Shown: positions 4,898-34,747 of the stretch, piece after piece
Layout: every line of letters starts with the position of its first letter
Position numbering within the stretch: the stretch's first letter is position 1
Origin: a bacterium
GTDB lineage: Bacteria; Armatimonadota; Zipacnadia; Zipacnadales; UBA11051
Assembly: GCA_021372615.1 (NCBI GenBank)
Contig: JAJFUB010000024.1
Location: forward strand, 1 to 34,747
DNA: 34,747 bases
Direction: 5' to 3'
Translations under genes and position numbers: made by a program
The notes under the pieces: model-generated
Database searches by the model: none
Told to the model about the DNA's origin: nothing
The model's input: the letters and a program-made list of their open reading frames with translations, nothing else

Positions 4898-5572
4898 ATG
4901 GGACGACATGGTTTCACGCTCATCGAGTTGTTGGTTGTGATCGCCATCATCGCCATTCTGGCAGCCATCCTCTTCCCGGTCTTCGCCAAGGCTCGTGAGA
5001 AGGCGCGCCAGGCGTCCTGCCAGAGCAACATGAAGCAACTCGGCATCGCCTTCGCCATGTACATGCAGGACTACGACCAGAAGACGCCGGACTGCCGCTA
5101 CCCGCAACCGGCCATCAACCCGGACCCGTACAACCCCTCGGTTCTCATCTGCTACACCTGGGCTGAGGTCACACTGCCGTACGTGAAGAACCAGCAGATT
5201 CTGTTCTGCCCCAGCCAGGGCTACAAGCAGAGCTACACCAGCCACCCGGTGCGCATCTACAGCTACGCGCGGCAGCTGGGGTACTTCTATGGCGACGCTG
5301 GCCACAACACCCAGCCCTGGTGCATCACTGACACGCAGATTCCCCTGCCGGCGGAGACAGTGAACGTCCAGGAGTCGGACAGTTGCGCGCGGCCGGGGCC
5401 ACGGTATATCCACTGGCCCGGGCCGGATGTGAGCGTGCCGTGGGCCAACGACGGCTACGCCCCCAGCATGCGCCACAACGATGGCTCCAATCTGCTGTTC
5501 TACGACGGCCACGTGAAGTGGGCCGGACGGTATAACATGCCGGCCAAGTACTGGTCCATCGAGGCCGACTGA
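4898..5572 (+). CDS. DUF1559-type pseudopilin
   Basis: A 224-residue secreted or pilus-like protein with a type IV prepilin leader: MGRHG followed by [21 protein letters not shown] prepilin peptidase would cut after G5 and methylate F6. The hydrophobic helix is followed by the [13 protein letters not shown] block and SNMKQLG, a pattern I associate with Armatimonadota and Planctomycetes. The C-terminus has the H-x9-DG motif ([17 protein letters not shown]). ATG 4898 has GGAGG at 4887-4891. Such proteins are numerous in these phyla; roles in surface fibres or polysaccharide handling are proposed but not shown. It is divergent from mutS, and a hairpin at 5603 probably ends its transcript. A second copy of the family lies at 27942-28589. 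Confidence 0.92.
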
Positions 5573-29890: not shown

Positions 29891-30883
29891 CTATCCGGGA
29901 ACCACTTCGCGCAAGTACACCCGTCGCCCTTCCCGCTGCGCGAGGCGGGCCGCCGTCGCCACCGCGATGTTCTCGAGCATCTCGGCGCGCGGTTCGGTGG
30001 GCTGGCCTGCGCGCACCATCCGCGCGATGCGCCGCAGGATCTCACCGGCACCCTCGGGGAACTCGAAGTCGCCGATGTTCCCCGAATGGATGGCCCCCTG
30101 CGCGCCGAAGGCGCTGACATAGAACGAGCAGTGCCAGGTTGGCCCGGCGTCACAGTTAAGCATCACACCATGCGAGGGCCGGTCCGCCCGGCCGCCGTAG
30201 TCCAGGTGGATGTACGACAGCTCGCCGGGCCCCATCGCCTCGACCGCCGCGACGCCGGGGCCGAAGACATGCTGGGCGAGACTGACGGCGTGAATGTGCC
30301 CCGCCATGGCCGCCCCGCCGCCCTTGATGGAGCCGTAACCGACCGGCCACACCTCCTGCAGGCGGTCGCGGAACCAGCGCGCCTGTGGCACGGTGCGCAG
30401 CATCGAGAGGGACATGACCGGCGCCCCGTGCGCCGCGCCCAGGTCCAGGAGCGCCAGTGCGTCGTGGTACTCGTAGGCCAGGGGTTTGTCCACGAACGTC
30501 GGCACACCCTTCGTCAGGCCGGGCGTCGCCAGCTCCAGGTGGGTCGAGCCGTCGCCGTTGCAGTCGGGGATGAAGACGAGGTCCACGTCCTCGGAGCAGT
30601 CGGCGAAGTGGTCGCACACCTGCGCGCCAAAGATGTGCGCGACGGACTCGGCGCTCTCGCGGTCCGGGTCCCAGCACTTGACGATCTGGAACTCCCACAC
30701 CTGCGGCGCGGTCATGGTGCGGGGGTCGTTGTAGTGGGTGTAGTGGTAGAAGAACGCCGCTTGCCCCCGGTCCTGGCCCATACCGTCGCCACGCAGGACC
30801 AGCGGGTCATGCTCGGCCATGAGCACAGCATAGTACAGGGCGTGCAGGTCGCAACCGACCATCCCGACGCGGATCTTGTCCAT
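29891..30883 (-). CDS. Gfo/Idh/MocA-family oxidoreductase
   Basis: A 330-residue NAD(P)-dependent oxidoreductase. The N-terminus (MDKIRVGMVGCDLHALYY) starts a Rossmann fold, although the usual GxGxxG is replaced by GMVGCD. The family hallmark EKP appears as VDKPLAYEYHDAL near residue 131. GGGAAMAGHIHAV in the second domain lies where the catalytic Lys/His region is found. Such enzymes oxidise or rearrange sugars and inositols; the substrate cannot be named. CCGGAGG sits seven bases before ATG 30883. Its first 11 codons and the upstream TATTGGAC are repeated at the start of the gene at 31374-32864. It heads a unit with the CBM-tailed protein, fitting use of sugars freed outside the cell. Confidence 0.85.
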   Translation of the reverse strand: MDKIRVGMVGCDLHALYYAVLMAEHDPLVLRGDGMGQDRGQAAFFYHYTHYNDPRTMTAPQVWEFQIVKCWDPDRESAESVAHIFGAQVCDHFADCSEDVDLVFIPDCNGDGSTHLELATPGLTKGVPTFVDKPLAYEYHDALALLDLGAAHGAPVMSLSMLRTVPQARWFRDRLQEVWPVGYGSIKGGGAAMAGHIHAVSLAQHVFGPGVAAVEAMGPGELSYIHLDYGGRADRPSHGVMLNCDAGPTWHCSFYVSAFGAQGAIHSGNIGDFEFPEGAGEILRRIARMVRAGQPTEPRAEMLENIAVATAARLAQREGRRVYLREVVPG

Positions 30884-30921
30884 GGACCAGCCTCCGGACG
30901 AGGGGTAGCGCAGTATTGGAC
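30851..30921. repeat. Duplicated start region, copy 1
   Basis: The first 33 coding bases of the oxidoreductase (30851-30883) match 32832-32864 at 29 of 33 positions, and TATTGGAC (30914-30921) lies at nearly the same distance upstream as in copy 2 (31 against 29 bases). On the far side both copies are followed by the same 18 bases ending in TATAATC. The whole divergent intergenic segment appears to have been duplicated. Confidence 0.75.
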
Positions 30922-30952
30922 GCGCACGGGCCGCTCCCCTCTACCCGCACCC

Positions 30953-31006
30953 CGCCGCTGCGCGGCGCCTCTCTCCCGGCGACTGCAGGTCGCAGGAGAG
31001 AGAGGC
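30953..31006. repeat. Intergenic nested palindrome related to family B
   Basis: CGCCGC-TGC-GCGGCG (30953-30967) has the same TGC loop as the hairpins near 200. It abuts GCCTCTCTCC (30967-30976), which pairs with GGAGAGAGAGGC (30995-31006), with GCGAC-TGCAG-GTCGC (30979-30993) nested inside. It resembles the element inside recG and lies between copy 1 of the duplicated start region and the TATAAT promoter. Confidence 0.7.
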
Positions 31007-31033
31007 AGGGGGGAGGGCCTCTTCCGCCCTCAT

Positions 31034-31051
31034 CCCCGCCGCAGTATAATC
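31034..31051 (+). promoter_or_regulatory. Promoter-like box before the small membrane gene
   Basis: CCCCGCCGCAGTATAATC (31034-31051) contains a perfect -10 box (31045-31050). The -35 position 17 bases upstream reads TTCCGC, a poor match. The identical 18 bases recur at 32985-33002. Transcription from here would give the gene at 31078 a leader of about 20 bases. Confidence 0.5.
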
Positions 31052-31077
31052 ATGCCAGCAACCCACGGGAGACCCGT

Positions 31078-31377
31078 ATGGACACCGACACCGCCGGCCC
31101 TGCCATCGCCGTCGTCTTCATGATCGTCATCTACGGTGGGATGTTCCTGTTCGTGATTGCGGCCATGGTGCTGTGGATCATGGCGCTGGTGGACGTGGTC
31201 AAGCGGCAGTTCAAGGAGCCGAACGAGAAGATCGTGTGGGTGCTCATCATCGCCCTGACGCACTGGATCGGGGCGCTGATCTACATGCTGATCGGCAGGA
31301 AGCAAGGCTGGCTGCCGGAGGAGGCGTACTACACCCCGCCACCCGGCGCCACGCCGCCGTCAGGCCCCGCCGGCTAG
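31078..31377 (+). CDS. Small membrane protein with PLDc_N-like domain
   Basis: A 99-residue protein with two membrane helices (about 9-37 and 52-72) joined by DVVKRQFKEPNEKIVWVLI and ending LIYMLIGRKQGW. This is the pattern of the domain called PLDc_N (phospholipase D-nuclease N-terminal), which also occurs alone in short membrane proteins of unknown role. A Pro-rich tail follows. GGGAG lies six bases before ATG 31078. Its stop and that of the opposite gene share the palindrome CTAG (31374-31377). No catalytic domain is attached, so it is not itself a phospholipase. Confidence 0.8.
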   Translation: MDTDTAGPAIAVVFMIVIYGGMFLFVIAAMVLWIMALVDVVKRQFKEPNEKIVWVLIIALTHWIGALIYMLIGRKQGWLPEEAYYTPPPGATPPSGPAG

Positions 31378-32864
31378 GGGGGACCTCCGCCGCCCGCGCC
31401 GGGTGCGGCCATCTCCAGCAGCCGCGGCGGCGACTCGGAGAACCTGAAGCGGTAGCACGCCCGCGACGGCGGCGCGGCGCCGACCGAGCATGTCACGCGC
31501 ACCGTGTACAGCATCGGGATCGCCACCCGCAAGTCTCCGAACTGCTTGGACAGACCCTCCACGTGCACGTGCGTCCCCGCTGGTGGAGCGGGCAGGGCGG
31601 CGTATACCGCCCGGAGCACCTCCCGCCGCACCGCGCTATCGCGCAGGCGGTTACTCGCCATCGCCTGCAGCAGCACGAAGGACGCCGCCACGTACAGCCC
31701 CACGCCCACCAGCGCCACAGTGCGCACGCGACGGCGCGGGCGCGGCGTCAGGGCCCACTGCACCAGCAACCCCACCAGCAACGACAGCCCCACCGACGGC
31801 AGGTACCCATAGCGCGGCGCGCGTGCGTAGAAGTAGATGAAGGGCAGGAAGGGCAACAACCCCAGGACACTCCACAGGAGCCCCAGCCGCACCCGCTCTC
31901 GCCCCCGCACCAGCCCGTACCCCGCCAGCAGGCTCAGCCCCAGCAGTGGGACCAGCGACGCCTGCCCCACCGCCGCCGCCACCGACGGCGACAGCACCCG
32001 CTGCAACAGCGCCGCGAACGTCTCGAAGCGCAGGTCCGGCAGCAGCATCTGCGGGGGCACCAGCAGCAGGTTCGTCACCATGTGCAGGCCGGGCCAGTAG
32101 TCGGTGGAGCCGTACTGGATCGAGTCATGGTGCACCCCCACCCCCACGCGCCAGGCGATGTGCGCCAGCACCGGCAGCGCCTGCCAGGCCACCGCCAGGG
32201 CGGGCCGGTCGCGGTACAGCAGGCGATCCAGCACGACCAGCAACGGGAACACCACCAAGGCGTTCTCCTTGCACAGCGCCGCCAGCACTCCGAGCAGCAC
32301 CGACAGCGGCAGGGCCCACCGGTGCCCCTCGCGGTAGCGCAGCCACAGCAGCGTGGCGGCGATGACGAGCGTCGCCGCCAGCACATGATGGGCGGACTGC
32401 GACCACGCCACGGCCTCCTGGTGCGAAAACAGCAGCGCGAAGAAGACCCCGGCAGTGGACGCGGCCCGCAGGCCCACGCGCTCCGTGGGCCGCGCGGCCG
32501 GCTCCGCCGACATCAACACCCGCCACACGAGCCACGCGACCAGCACGGACGCGATACTGTGCAGCAGAATGACCGTGGCGTAGTAGGGCCAGGCCGTCGC
32601 GCCGAAGGTGCGATAGAGCGTGCCGTACAGGAGGTTATAGCAGGGGGTGACGCCGGCCTCGCCATAGGCGAGGCTGCGGCCGGTCATCCAGTCGTGGGCG
32701 ACCTTGAGCCAGGCGAAGTCATCGTTGCGGAAGTACGCCCCGAGCATGCGCACATAGCCGGCCCACGCGGCGAGCGCGGGCCACATCGCCAGGGCCAGGA
32801 GCGGGCCGCAACGGCCCGGCGCGCGCCAGTGGCAACCGATCATCCCGACGTGGAACCTGTCCAT
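31374..32864 (-). CDS. Multi-spanning GT-C glycosyltransferase-like protein
   Basis: A membrane protein of up to 496 residues with roughly ten hydrophobic helices. The first loop carries the acidic motif FRNDDFAWL (D48, D49), as in GT-C enzymes that use lipid-linked sugars. LCKENALVVFPLLVVLDRLLYRD resembles O-mannosyltransferases of the TMTC type. About 100 C-terminal residues are soluble. The N-terminus is odd: MDRFHVGMIGCHWRA copies the start of the Gfo/Idh/MocA protein at 29891-30883, and such a Rossmann-like start has no place in a GT-C protein. The true start may instead be ATG 32783 (M28) or 32747 (M40). The ribosome site for 32864 (GGGGG) is weak. It may glycosylate an envelope polymer or protein. 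Confidence 0.72.
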   Translation of the reverse strand: MDRFHVGMIGCHWRAPGRCGPLLALAMWPALAAWAGYVRMLGAYFRNDDFAWLKVAHDWMTGRSLAYGEAGVTPCYNLLYGTLYRTFGATAWPYYATVILLHSIASVLVAWLVWRVLMSAEPAARPTERVGLRAASTAGVFFALLFSHQEAVAWSQSAHHVLAATLVIAATLLWLRYREGHRWALPLSVLLGVLAALCKENALVVFPLLVVLDRLLYRDRPALAVAWQALPVLAHIAWRVGVGVHHDSIQYGSTDYWPGLHMVTNLLLVPPQMLLPDLRFETFAALLQRVLSPSVAAAVGQASLVPLLGLSLLAGYGLVRGRERVRLGLLWSVLGLLPFLPFIYFYARAPRYGYLPSVGLSLLVGLLVQWALTPRPRRRVRTVALVGVGLYVAASFVLLQAMASNRLRDSAVRREVLRAVYAALPAPPAGTHVHVEGLSKQFGDLRVAIPMLYTVRVTCSVGAAPPSRACYRFRFSESPPRLLEMAAPGAGGGGPP

Positions 32865-32900
32865 GCCGACCCCCGGGAACAGTTTGGGGAGTTATTGGAC
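32832..32900. repeat. Duplicated start region, copy 2
   Basis: This matches 30851-30921: 29 of 33 coding bases agree, and TATTGGAC (32893-32900) lies 29 bases beyond the ATG. Here the copied codons are joined in frame to a membrane-protein gene instead of an oxidoreductase gene. This suggests that most of a second oxidoreductase gene was lost and its 5' end fused to what followed. Confidence 0.72.
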
Positions 32901-32972
32901 ACCGGGGCCGCGTCTCCTGCCGGGCGGAGGGGCGAGGAGGGCTGAGAAGGGGAGAACAAGGCGCGGACGGCG

Positions 32973-33002
32973 TTGCCGCCCTGGCCCCGCCGCAGTATAA
33001 TC
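32973..33002 (+). promoter_or_regulatory. Promoter of the DUF7662/HEPN-like gene
   Basis: TTGCCG (32973-32978) and TATAAT (32996-33001) are 17 bases apart, a plausible sigma70-type promoter. The 18 bases at 32985-33002 are identical to 31034-31051. The transcript would begin near 33008 and have a leader of about 114 bases that includes the hairpin at 33058-33078. Confidence 0.55.
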
Positions 33003-33057
33003 GCCGCGGCCCTCATCCAGGGGAGTATCCGAAGGGCCGGGTGAGAGGCCGTTGGAG

Positions 33058-33078
33058 GGGCCGGCTATCAGCCGGCCC
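33058..33078. repeat. Hairpin in the 5' leader of the gene at 33122
   Basis: GGGCCGGCT (33058-33066) pairs perfectly with AGCCGGCCC (33070-33078) around ATC. Its core GCCGGCT...AGCCGGC is the same as in the second mutS hairpin at 4225-4241. It may be one more dispersed palindrome or a leader structure. Confidence 0.6.
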
Positions 33079-33121
33079 GCCGTCTGTGGCCGCCGCAGCA
33101 GCTAGGGAGGGGAAGCTTGCC

Positions 33122-34381
33122 ATGCGTAAGCCGAAGTATGGTCCACTGACCGAGCACCTTCAGCGCCTGCCGGGGAGTCAGCAGGAGATCACGCTGGCAT
33201 TCGCGGAGATCGAGGCAATCATCGGTACTCCTCTGCCTCCTTCGGCGCGTGAGCACCGAGCATGGTGGGGCAACGAGAAGAGCCCCAGTGCGCCTCAGAA
33301 GGTGGCGTGGCAGGCCGCCGGCTGGGCGGTCGCGAAGGCGCAGTTGCCGGACGAGCGAGTGGTCTTCGTGCGCACTCGCGCGGACCGGCATAGCGCTCAG
33401 ACCAGTACGGCCGTTGTCATGCCCGTCGCGGGCATCCCCACCGTGCCCATCTCGCTTGTCTGGTCGGGCTACCACGTACAGACGGAGGGCATGGAGCCAC
33501 AGCAGCTCGCGCGGGATGCAATCGAGGGTATGCGGCGTCTTGGTCTGCCTGAGACCGACTACTGGCCACGCATGGACGCGTTGGCTGCCATGTGGAACGA
33601 CGACCCGAAGTGGTGCCGCACCTTCTGGATGGAGACAGCGCAGCATGTCAGCCCGAAGGGGCACCCCTTCTTCCGTGCCGCGTTCGCGAACCTACTGCTC
33701 GGGGAGAAAGACTACGCCTGCCAGTACCTTGCGTATGCCTACTGCGAGGACAAGGGCTACTGCGATGGCGGCCCCGCCGCCGCCAAGCAACTCTCCGCGT
33801 ACGTTGCGCTGGCCCTGCTGCAGGAGTACGAGCAGCTTTCGTTATCACCTGAGTTCGCCCGCCTGTTCGAGGTGTCTTTCGACGCCGCGGTGTTCGGCAC
33901 CGGTCCGGATGCCAGCAAGGTGAGGGACGCGGTCCGTGTCGTCGCCACCGACGACTACGCGCATCACTGCCTCAGCTTGTACGACGAGCTCCGTCTGTGT
34001 CTGGATCTGCGTCGGCAGTTCGCGTCGGTCACACTGATCGGGGCCATGGTGGAGGCCCTGCTCTGCTCGCGGTTCTCGACTCCAAGTGGCGGGTCCGGCA
34101 CCGCACTCGCAACTGTCGATCGGCTAACTCTGGGGCAACTGCTATGCCATGCTCAGACGCACGCTCAGGCAATTGCGTTGCCGGAGCCGCTATTGCAGGT
34201 GTTCCACGTCCTTGCTGAGTTCCGGAACCGCGTACATCCAGGCAACGAGCGCCGCAAGGCGATGGCCGACCGAGGCCTGACACCGCGGATCGCCCAGACG
34301 GTTAGCACGCTTATGCAGCTGGCCCTCATCGAGTGGGCCGAGCACATCGCGCAGCGACCACCGGATGCACACCTGACGTAG
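33122..34381 (+). CDS. Protein with DUF7662-like and HEPN-like domains
   Basis: A 419-residue cytosolic protein. Residues about 5-85 (KYGPLTEHLQRLPGSQQEITLAFAEIEAIIG, LPPSAREHRAWWGN, WQAAGWAV, ERVVFVR) match a small domain that I recall as DUF7662, of unknown role. The rest is mostly helical. It contains GAMVEALLCSRF (about 307-318) and near the end EFRNRVHPGNE (366-376), where R368-x3-H372 resembles the RNase motif of HEPN proteins, which are common in toxin and anti-phage systems. The middle part is not recognised. ATG 33122 has GGGAGGGG upstream. The next gene starts 11 bases after its stop, so it may share a transcript with a sugar oxidoreductase. Its base use looks less GC-biased at third positions than its neighbours, which may reflect transfer. 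Confidence 0.7.
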   Translation: MRKPKYGPLTEHLQRLPGSQQEITLAFAEIEAIIGTPLPPSAREHRAWWGNEKSPSAPQKVAWQAAGWAVAKAQLPDERVVFVRTRADRHSAQTSTAVVMPVAGIPTVPISLVWSGYHVQTEGMEPQQLARDAIEGMRRLGLPETDYWPRMDALAAMWNDDPKWCRTFWMETAQHVSPKGHPFFRAAFANLLLGEKDYACQYLAYAYCEDKGYCDGGPAAAKQLSAYVALALLQEYEQLSLSPEFARLFEVSFDAAVFGTGPDASKVRDAVRVVATDDYAHHCLSLYDELRLCLDLRRQFASVTLIGAMVEALLCSRFSTPSGGSGTALATVDRLTLGQLLCHAQTHAQAIALPEPLLQVFHVLAEFRNRVHPGNERRKAMADRGLTPRIAQTVSTLMQLALIEWAEHIAQRPPDAHLT

Positions 34382-34392
34382 GAGAGGTAGCC

Positions 34393-34747
34393 ATGCCATC
34401 CATCCGCATCGCCATGGTCGGCGCCGGGTTCGCTGCCGACTTTCACTGTGAAGCCTACAAGCAGGTCAAGGGCCTCGACTGCCAGGTCGTCGCCGTCACC
34501 TCCGCCCGTGCCGAGAGCCGCGAGGCCTTCGCCCGCAAGCATGGCATTCCCGGCGTCTACGCCAGCCTCGAAGAGCTGCTCGAGCGCGCCGAGGTGGATG
34601 TCGTGGATATCTGCGCGCCGACCAACGTGCACGGCCCCGACGCCGTGCTGGCCGCGCAGGCGGGCAAGCATGTCATCGTCGAGAAGCCGCTGACGGGGTA
34701 TACCCAGGAGCTGTGGGACGCCAACCTTCTACCCCCCCCTTCAGGGG
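34393..34747 (+). CDS. Gfo/Idh/MocA-family oxidoreductase, 5' part only
   Basis: The first 118 codons of an NAD(P)-dependent sugar oxidoreductase cut by the window edge. The Rossmann start IRIAMVGAGFAADFHCEAY has the usual GxGxxA pattern, followed by VDVVDICAPTNVHGPDAVLAAQAGKHVIVEKPLTGYT with the family's EKP motif. GGAGAGG lies five bases before ATG 34393. The last visible codons (LLPPPSG) lie in a C/G palindrome like those inserted in mutS and in the gene at 12294, so this gene may also carry an in-frame repeat just after the EKP segment. It is not close to the oxidoreductase at 29891. Confidence 0.9.
   Translation, partial: MPSIRIAMVGAGFAADFHCEAYKQVKGLDCQVVAVTSARAESREAFARKHGIPGVYASLEELLERAEVDVVDICAPTNVHGPDAVLAAQAGKHVIVEKPLTGYTQELWDANLLPPPSG
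34730..34747. repeat. Edge of a family-B palindrome
   Basis: CTACCCCCCCCTTCAGGGG runs into the end of the window, with CCCC and GGGG arms around TTCA. The left flank CTACCCCC also precedes the element at 14803-14833. The rest is outside the window, so its length and effect on the frame are not known. Confidence 0.45.

Follow-up and report, generated by a model that had tools for sequence, protein, structure and literature searches.

The gene of a predicted GT-C membrane glycosyltransferase in the window (the whole stretch of 34,747 nucleotides that was analysed) begins with a degraded second copy of the start of a neighbouring, unrelated oxidoreductase gene of the Gfo/Idh/MocA family. The N-terminal segment of the GT-C protein is homologous to the Gfo protein and is missing from the relatives of the GT-C protein. 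Very probably, a local duplication, in which the second copy lost the Gfo body or never had it, fused the Gfo start to the GT-C gene, and by this local duplication the GT-C gene would therefore have got its beginning from an unrelated neighbour. The chimeric start by local duplication is well supported and is a clear case of a known kind, not a new kind of system. The genes around the two copies are as follows.

29891 to 30883, minus strand: Gfo/Idh/MocA oxidoreductase of 330 residues (MDKIRVGMVGCDLHALYY...), the present-day copy of the donor gene (PF01408, 5.9e-10)
31078 to 31377, plus strand: small membrane protein of the PLDc_N type, 99 residues, between the copies and convergent with the GT-C gene (PF13396, 4.1e-12)
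31374 to 32864, minus strand: GT-C membrane glycosyltransferase of 496 residues with the chimeric N-terminus (assigned by its relatives and by the match of its AlphaFold model with GT-C structures)
33122 to 34381, plus strand: DUF7662 protein, downstream of copy 2 and divergent from the GT-C gene (PF24698, 1.2e-14)

Among the records found, the closest named relative of the Gfo gene is from an Armatimonadetes bacterium (75% identity). The Gfo/Idh/MocA family is greatly expanded in this genome, with about 121 matches in 6.4 Mb.

The match between the two gene starts

The starts of the Gfo and GT-C genes are about 2 kb apart, and the first 33 coding bases, read on the minus strand from 30883 and 32864, respectively, are identical at 29 positions, exactly as the earlier note had counted. 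All four mismatches are non-synonymous (K/R, I/F, R/H and V/I), and the third codon positions of the first 11 codons are identical throughout (11/11). The upstream sequence that was said to be shared at nearly the same distance is the element TATTGGAC, which precedes the Gfo and GT-C ATGs by 31 and 29 bases, respectively, and has no other site in the window.

32832 to 32864, minus strand: Gfo-derived codons 1 to 11 of the GT-C gene (MDRFHVGMIGC)
32817 to 32831, minus strand: probable continuation of the relic, codons 12 to 16 (HWRAP, compared with DLHAL), with a suggestive 9/15 match
30914 to 30921, no strand assigned: TATTGGAC (GTCCAATA on the minus strand), copy 1
32893 to 32900, no strand assigned: TATTGGAC (GTCCAATA on the minus strand), copy 2

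The match over codons 12 to 16 is reached by 2.5% of random in-frame 15-mers, and the 33-mer windows along the start diagonal hold 25 to 26 matches as far as these codons. When the two genes are compared as 33-mers, all pairs with at least 24 matches are on the start-to-start diagonal, and the best pair elsewhere has 23. A local alignment of the whole Gfo and GT-C genes was rejected as evidence of relationship: its score of 27.5 is reached by three of 500 mononucleotide shuffles, it concerns a region unrelated to the start and it is attributed to shared codon bias.

The pair is also unique within the 6.4-Mb genome. The start pattern, allowing up to three mismatches, occurs at the Gfo and GT-C starts only, and intact copies elsewhere, which the earlier note had suggested looking for, are thus absent at this threshold. 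The composite pattern GTCCAATA-N(10-40)-ATGGAC likewise has two sites genome-wide, again at these starts. Candidate starts were also compared across some 50 loci of the same genome, in about 741,000 pairs; the other listed pairs with at least 29/33 matches are recurring look-alike starts, which appear to belong to families of homologues. Many near-identical gene starts are found at window position 4937 and at loci L015, L037, L048, L050 and L110; these are probably N-terminal regions of the pilin or DUF1559 type, repeated across the genome.

The repeated intergenic block

The repeat extends well beyond the coding starts. A search for direct repeats gives a 45-nt pair with 82% identity (30840-30884 and 32821-32865, offset 1981) and an exact 18-nt pair, CCCCGCCGCAGTATAATC, which holds a TATAAT box (offset 1951), such that both loci carry the start, TATTGGAC and the 18-mer in the same order. 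The gapped alignment of the two blocks, spanning the coding start, TATTGGAC and the TATAAT element up to the leader of the plus-strand gene, scores 49, compared with a maximum of 22 in 1000 dinucleotide shuffles. For the non-coding part by itself, the best alignment reaches 25.5, a score that none of 1000 shuffles attains (maximum 22). The 16-base core of the 18-mer occurs twice in the genome when up to one mismatch is allowed, both times exactly, and once more at two mismatches. The duplicated unit is the whole divergent intergenic region of about 215 to 245 bp; it extends from codon 11 to 16 of the Gfo gene as far as the leader of the gene opposite. The repeat proposed in the earlier note is real, and the unit is larger than the gene start considered there, as it includes a promoter-like element of the plus strand.

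30836 to 31080, no strand assigned: block copy 1, with Gfo codons 1 to 16, TATTGGAC, the TATAAT element and the PLDc_N leader
32817 to 33031, no strand assigned: block copy 2, which now provides the start of the GT-C gene
31034 to 31051, plus strand: CCCCGCCGCAGTATAATC, copy 1, whose TATAAT ends 27 bases before the PLDc_N ATG (31078)
32985 to 33002, plus strand: CCCCGCCGCAGTATAATC, copy 2, within TTGCCG-17-TATAAT (32973-33001) and pointing toward the DUF7662 gene
30950 to 30977, no strand assigned: 28 nt found in copy 1 and not in copy 2, a gap in the MAFFT alignment

The upstream part of the alignment is gappy, with this 28-nt and smaller indels. The 28 nt are probably a small repeat that was inserted into copy 1 after the duplication, because the gap coincides with sequence that is matched elsewhere in the genome. 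Copy 1 also has, at 30945-31017, a short palindromic, REP-like intergenic sequence, which is partly matched on several other contigs.

The GT-C protein and the source of its N-terminus

By its predicted fold, the 496-residue protein is a GT-C enzyme. The AlphaFold model (mean pLDDT of 68.9, pTM of 0.71) has as its top Foldseek match ArnT (5f15; probability 1.00, E-value 8.7e-3), and the best 29 rows of the VIA comparison, which include OST, ArnT, PglB, PMT, PimE, ALG3/6 and PIG-U, are all GT-C enzymes or membrane proteins with the GT-C fold (Z from 12.7 to 6.5, 199 to 350 residues aligned, rmsd of 4.2 to 6.2). In the model, residues 1 to 19 are predicted to be disordered, and the first membrane helix starts at residue 20. 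Asp48 and Asp49 (FRNDDF), placed by the alignment and the predicted model directly after helix 20-47, are invariant in 6/6 proteins; the protein thus has the acidic residues that mark the GT-C superfamily in the first external loop, behind helix 1. At the sequence level, the protein matches no Pfam or NCBIfam family, its five relatives are likewise without a Pfam family, a sequence search of solved structures gave no match and a peptide scan of the genome contigs found no relatives.

The gene is present in five of the 41 genomes of the order, its own genome being counted, with relatives in G006, G004, G027 and G011. These proteins form a GT-C family of about 470 to 530 residues (31374-32864, L024-L027 and L031), which has no Pfam model and is patchy in the order. 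The nearest relative of the window genome, G001, has a weak and partial GT-C match only, and GTATAATC was not found in the Gfo region of G001 that was examined.

The five best GT-C relatives (35-44% identity) have different and variable N-termini, for example MPQASFMNRGRGGGW or MDSLGETTAAPDRPV, and can be aligned with the window protein only near the first membrane helix. As the earlier note had proposed to check, none of them has MDRFHVGMIGC. No Gfo gene was detected beside these five genes, partly by a crude motif check. Orthologues of the window Gfo gene, on the other hand, are found at 67-74% identity in G001, G025, G027, G005 and G009; five Gfo orthologues read IRVGMIGCDLHALYY or close to it, and a sixth is more divergent. 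The peptide therefore belongs to the Gfo family and is foreign to the GT-C family, which gives the direction of the transfer as from Gfo to GT-C. The statement in the earlier note that such a beginning would be senseless in a GT-C enzyme goes too far: the N-terminal tail is disordered and variable in this family, and a foreign tail is therefore tolerated.

The relic matches the window Gfo gene best (29/33 and 38/48), followed by the G025 orthologue, MDTIRVGMIGCDLHALYY (28/33 and 37/48). Position 9 is an isoleucine in the relic and in 6/6 Gfo orthologues and a valine in the window Gfo protein, and therefore the copy predates the change of isoleucine into valine. Other Gfo genes were rejected as donors, as the 30 that were sampled from the genome match the relic at most at 23/33. 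The tandem Gfo paralogue of the IRVGVIRCDTH type, known from G027, G009 and G025, was also rejected (17-19/33). In these three genomes (L102 3355-5382, L105 4393-6404 and L103 2-1837), this paralogue adjoins the Gfo orthologue, to which it is about 41% identical, and both are read in the same direction. The nearest counterpart of the paralogue in the window genome is on another contig (C151).

Origin of the arrangement, its signals and known systems

In the proposed origin, a block of about 215 to 245 bp, with the first 11 to 16 codons of the Gfo gene, the divergent intergenic region and the leader of the plus-strand gene, would have been copied locally. The second copy would have lost the Gfo body, or never had it, and would have been joined in frame to the GT-C gene at a point shortly before the first transmembrane helix, such that the Shine-Dalgarno region and start codon of this gene, and the N-terminal peptide of its product, would now all derive from Gfo. 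We infer this order of duplication and fusion from the present arrangement.

It is also quite possible, at somewhat below an even chance, that the PLDc_N and GT-C segment entered beside the Gfo gene by recombination over the block, for example by a single crossover or staggered repair that left direct repeats on both sides, without any full Gfo duplicate. The block copies are indeed direct repeats flanking the PLDc_N and GT-C pair, nothing convincing is left of a Gfo body in the GT-C coding region beyond codon 16 or of PLDc_N coding sequence after copy 2, and the patchy occurrence of the GT-C gene (5/41 genomes) is in agreement with an insertion. However, in G006 and G004 the PLDc_N and GT-C relatives lie on separate contigs, which gives no sign of a pair that travels together, and there is no mobile-element gene among the neighbouring proteins that were scanned. 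Such an insertion between two block copies would leave the same pattern as duplication followed by deletion, and the pattern does not separate the two. Of the earlier proposal of a duplication followed by a deletion, the duplication is thus supported, and the deletion fits the data as well as the insertion of a segment between two copies does.

An assembly artefact, by which the contig would join unrelated pieces at a repeat, is very unlikely. The assembly has 171 contigs, and this contig ends 1.7 kb past copy 2 in an odd C-rich tail; but the copies, with a difference of 12% in the 33 coding bases and larger differences and indels upstream, have diverged further than a false join at one common repeat would allow, and the GT-C frame is open throughout, with relatives in the same family. 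The tail itself (34725-34747) lies inside a second Gfo gene and is possibly an assembly edge. The idea that the two starts are alike by chance or convergence, both being in GC-rich DNA, for which one could cite the coding motif IRVGxIGCG shared by Gfo starts and the roughly 121 Gfo-family matches, is effectively refuted because of the collinear upstream repeat with its exact 18-mer, next to the 29/33 and 11/11 matches, the genome-wide uniqueness and the shuffle tests.

The proposed origin by local duplication can be compared with known systems. It resembles the deletion-born fusion genes of PMC12803068 in that two reading frames, one giving the start and the other the remainder, are combined into a chimeric gene with the start of the donor. 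It differs from them in that the donor is intact 2 kb away, and therefore a duplicate start was used, and in that the body of the recipient is essentially whole, with only its tail exchanged. In PMC11111574, tandem duplication is described as a route to changed expression of horizontally transferred genes, which is the point of likeness; there the whole duplicated unit persists and amplifies, whereas here only a relic of the start is left, by which the expression of the gene may have changed.

In promoter propagation, or horizontal regulatory transfer, a regulatory region is copied in front of a non-homologous gene. The present copy differs from this in being local, in having two members only and in including codons, which leave a scar in the protein. 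A literature search for the stealing of gene starts found nothing relevant. The case provides a readable natural example of a gene whose start signals and first codons come from a neighbour that is unrelated to it, with no loss to the donor gene. For annotation, it is a warning that an unusual N-terminus can be a genuine scar rather than a wrongly called start, and it offers, within one genome, a testable pair of diverged promoter and start copies.

As for the present use of the block, the frame upstream of the GT-C ATG is open for nine codons only, and because these hold no ATG, GTG or TTG, the start is inside the relic if the first helix is complete. It could be Met8 instead of Met1, and Met8 is also within the relic. 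Pairing with the anti-Shine-Dalgarno sequence is possible at both starts, with about -10 kcal/mol, the Gfo-derived region of the GT-C gene having GGGGG in place of GGAGG. A consensus scan found no minus-strand promoter in either block copy, and the TTGCCG-17-TATAAT of copy 2 is the only sigma-70-like consensus site in 30700-33300; as part of the copied block, its present target may be the DUF7662 gene at 33122. Translation would start at the relic ATG and the block would drive transcription; that the Gfo-derived signals now drive the GT-C gene is plausible. That the copied block works in both directions as a regulatory cassette, and was retained for coordinating the oxidoreductase, PLDc_N, GT-C and DUF7662 genes, is rather improbable; if it were so, one duplication would have put four genes under shared control and given a membrane enzyme a new N-terminus.
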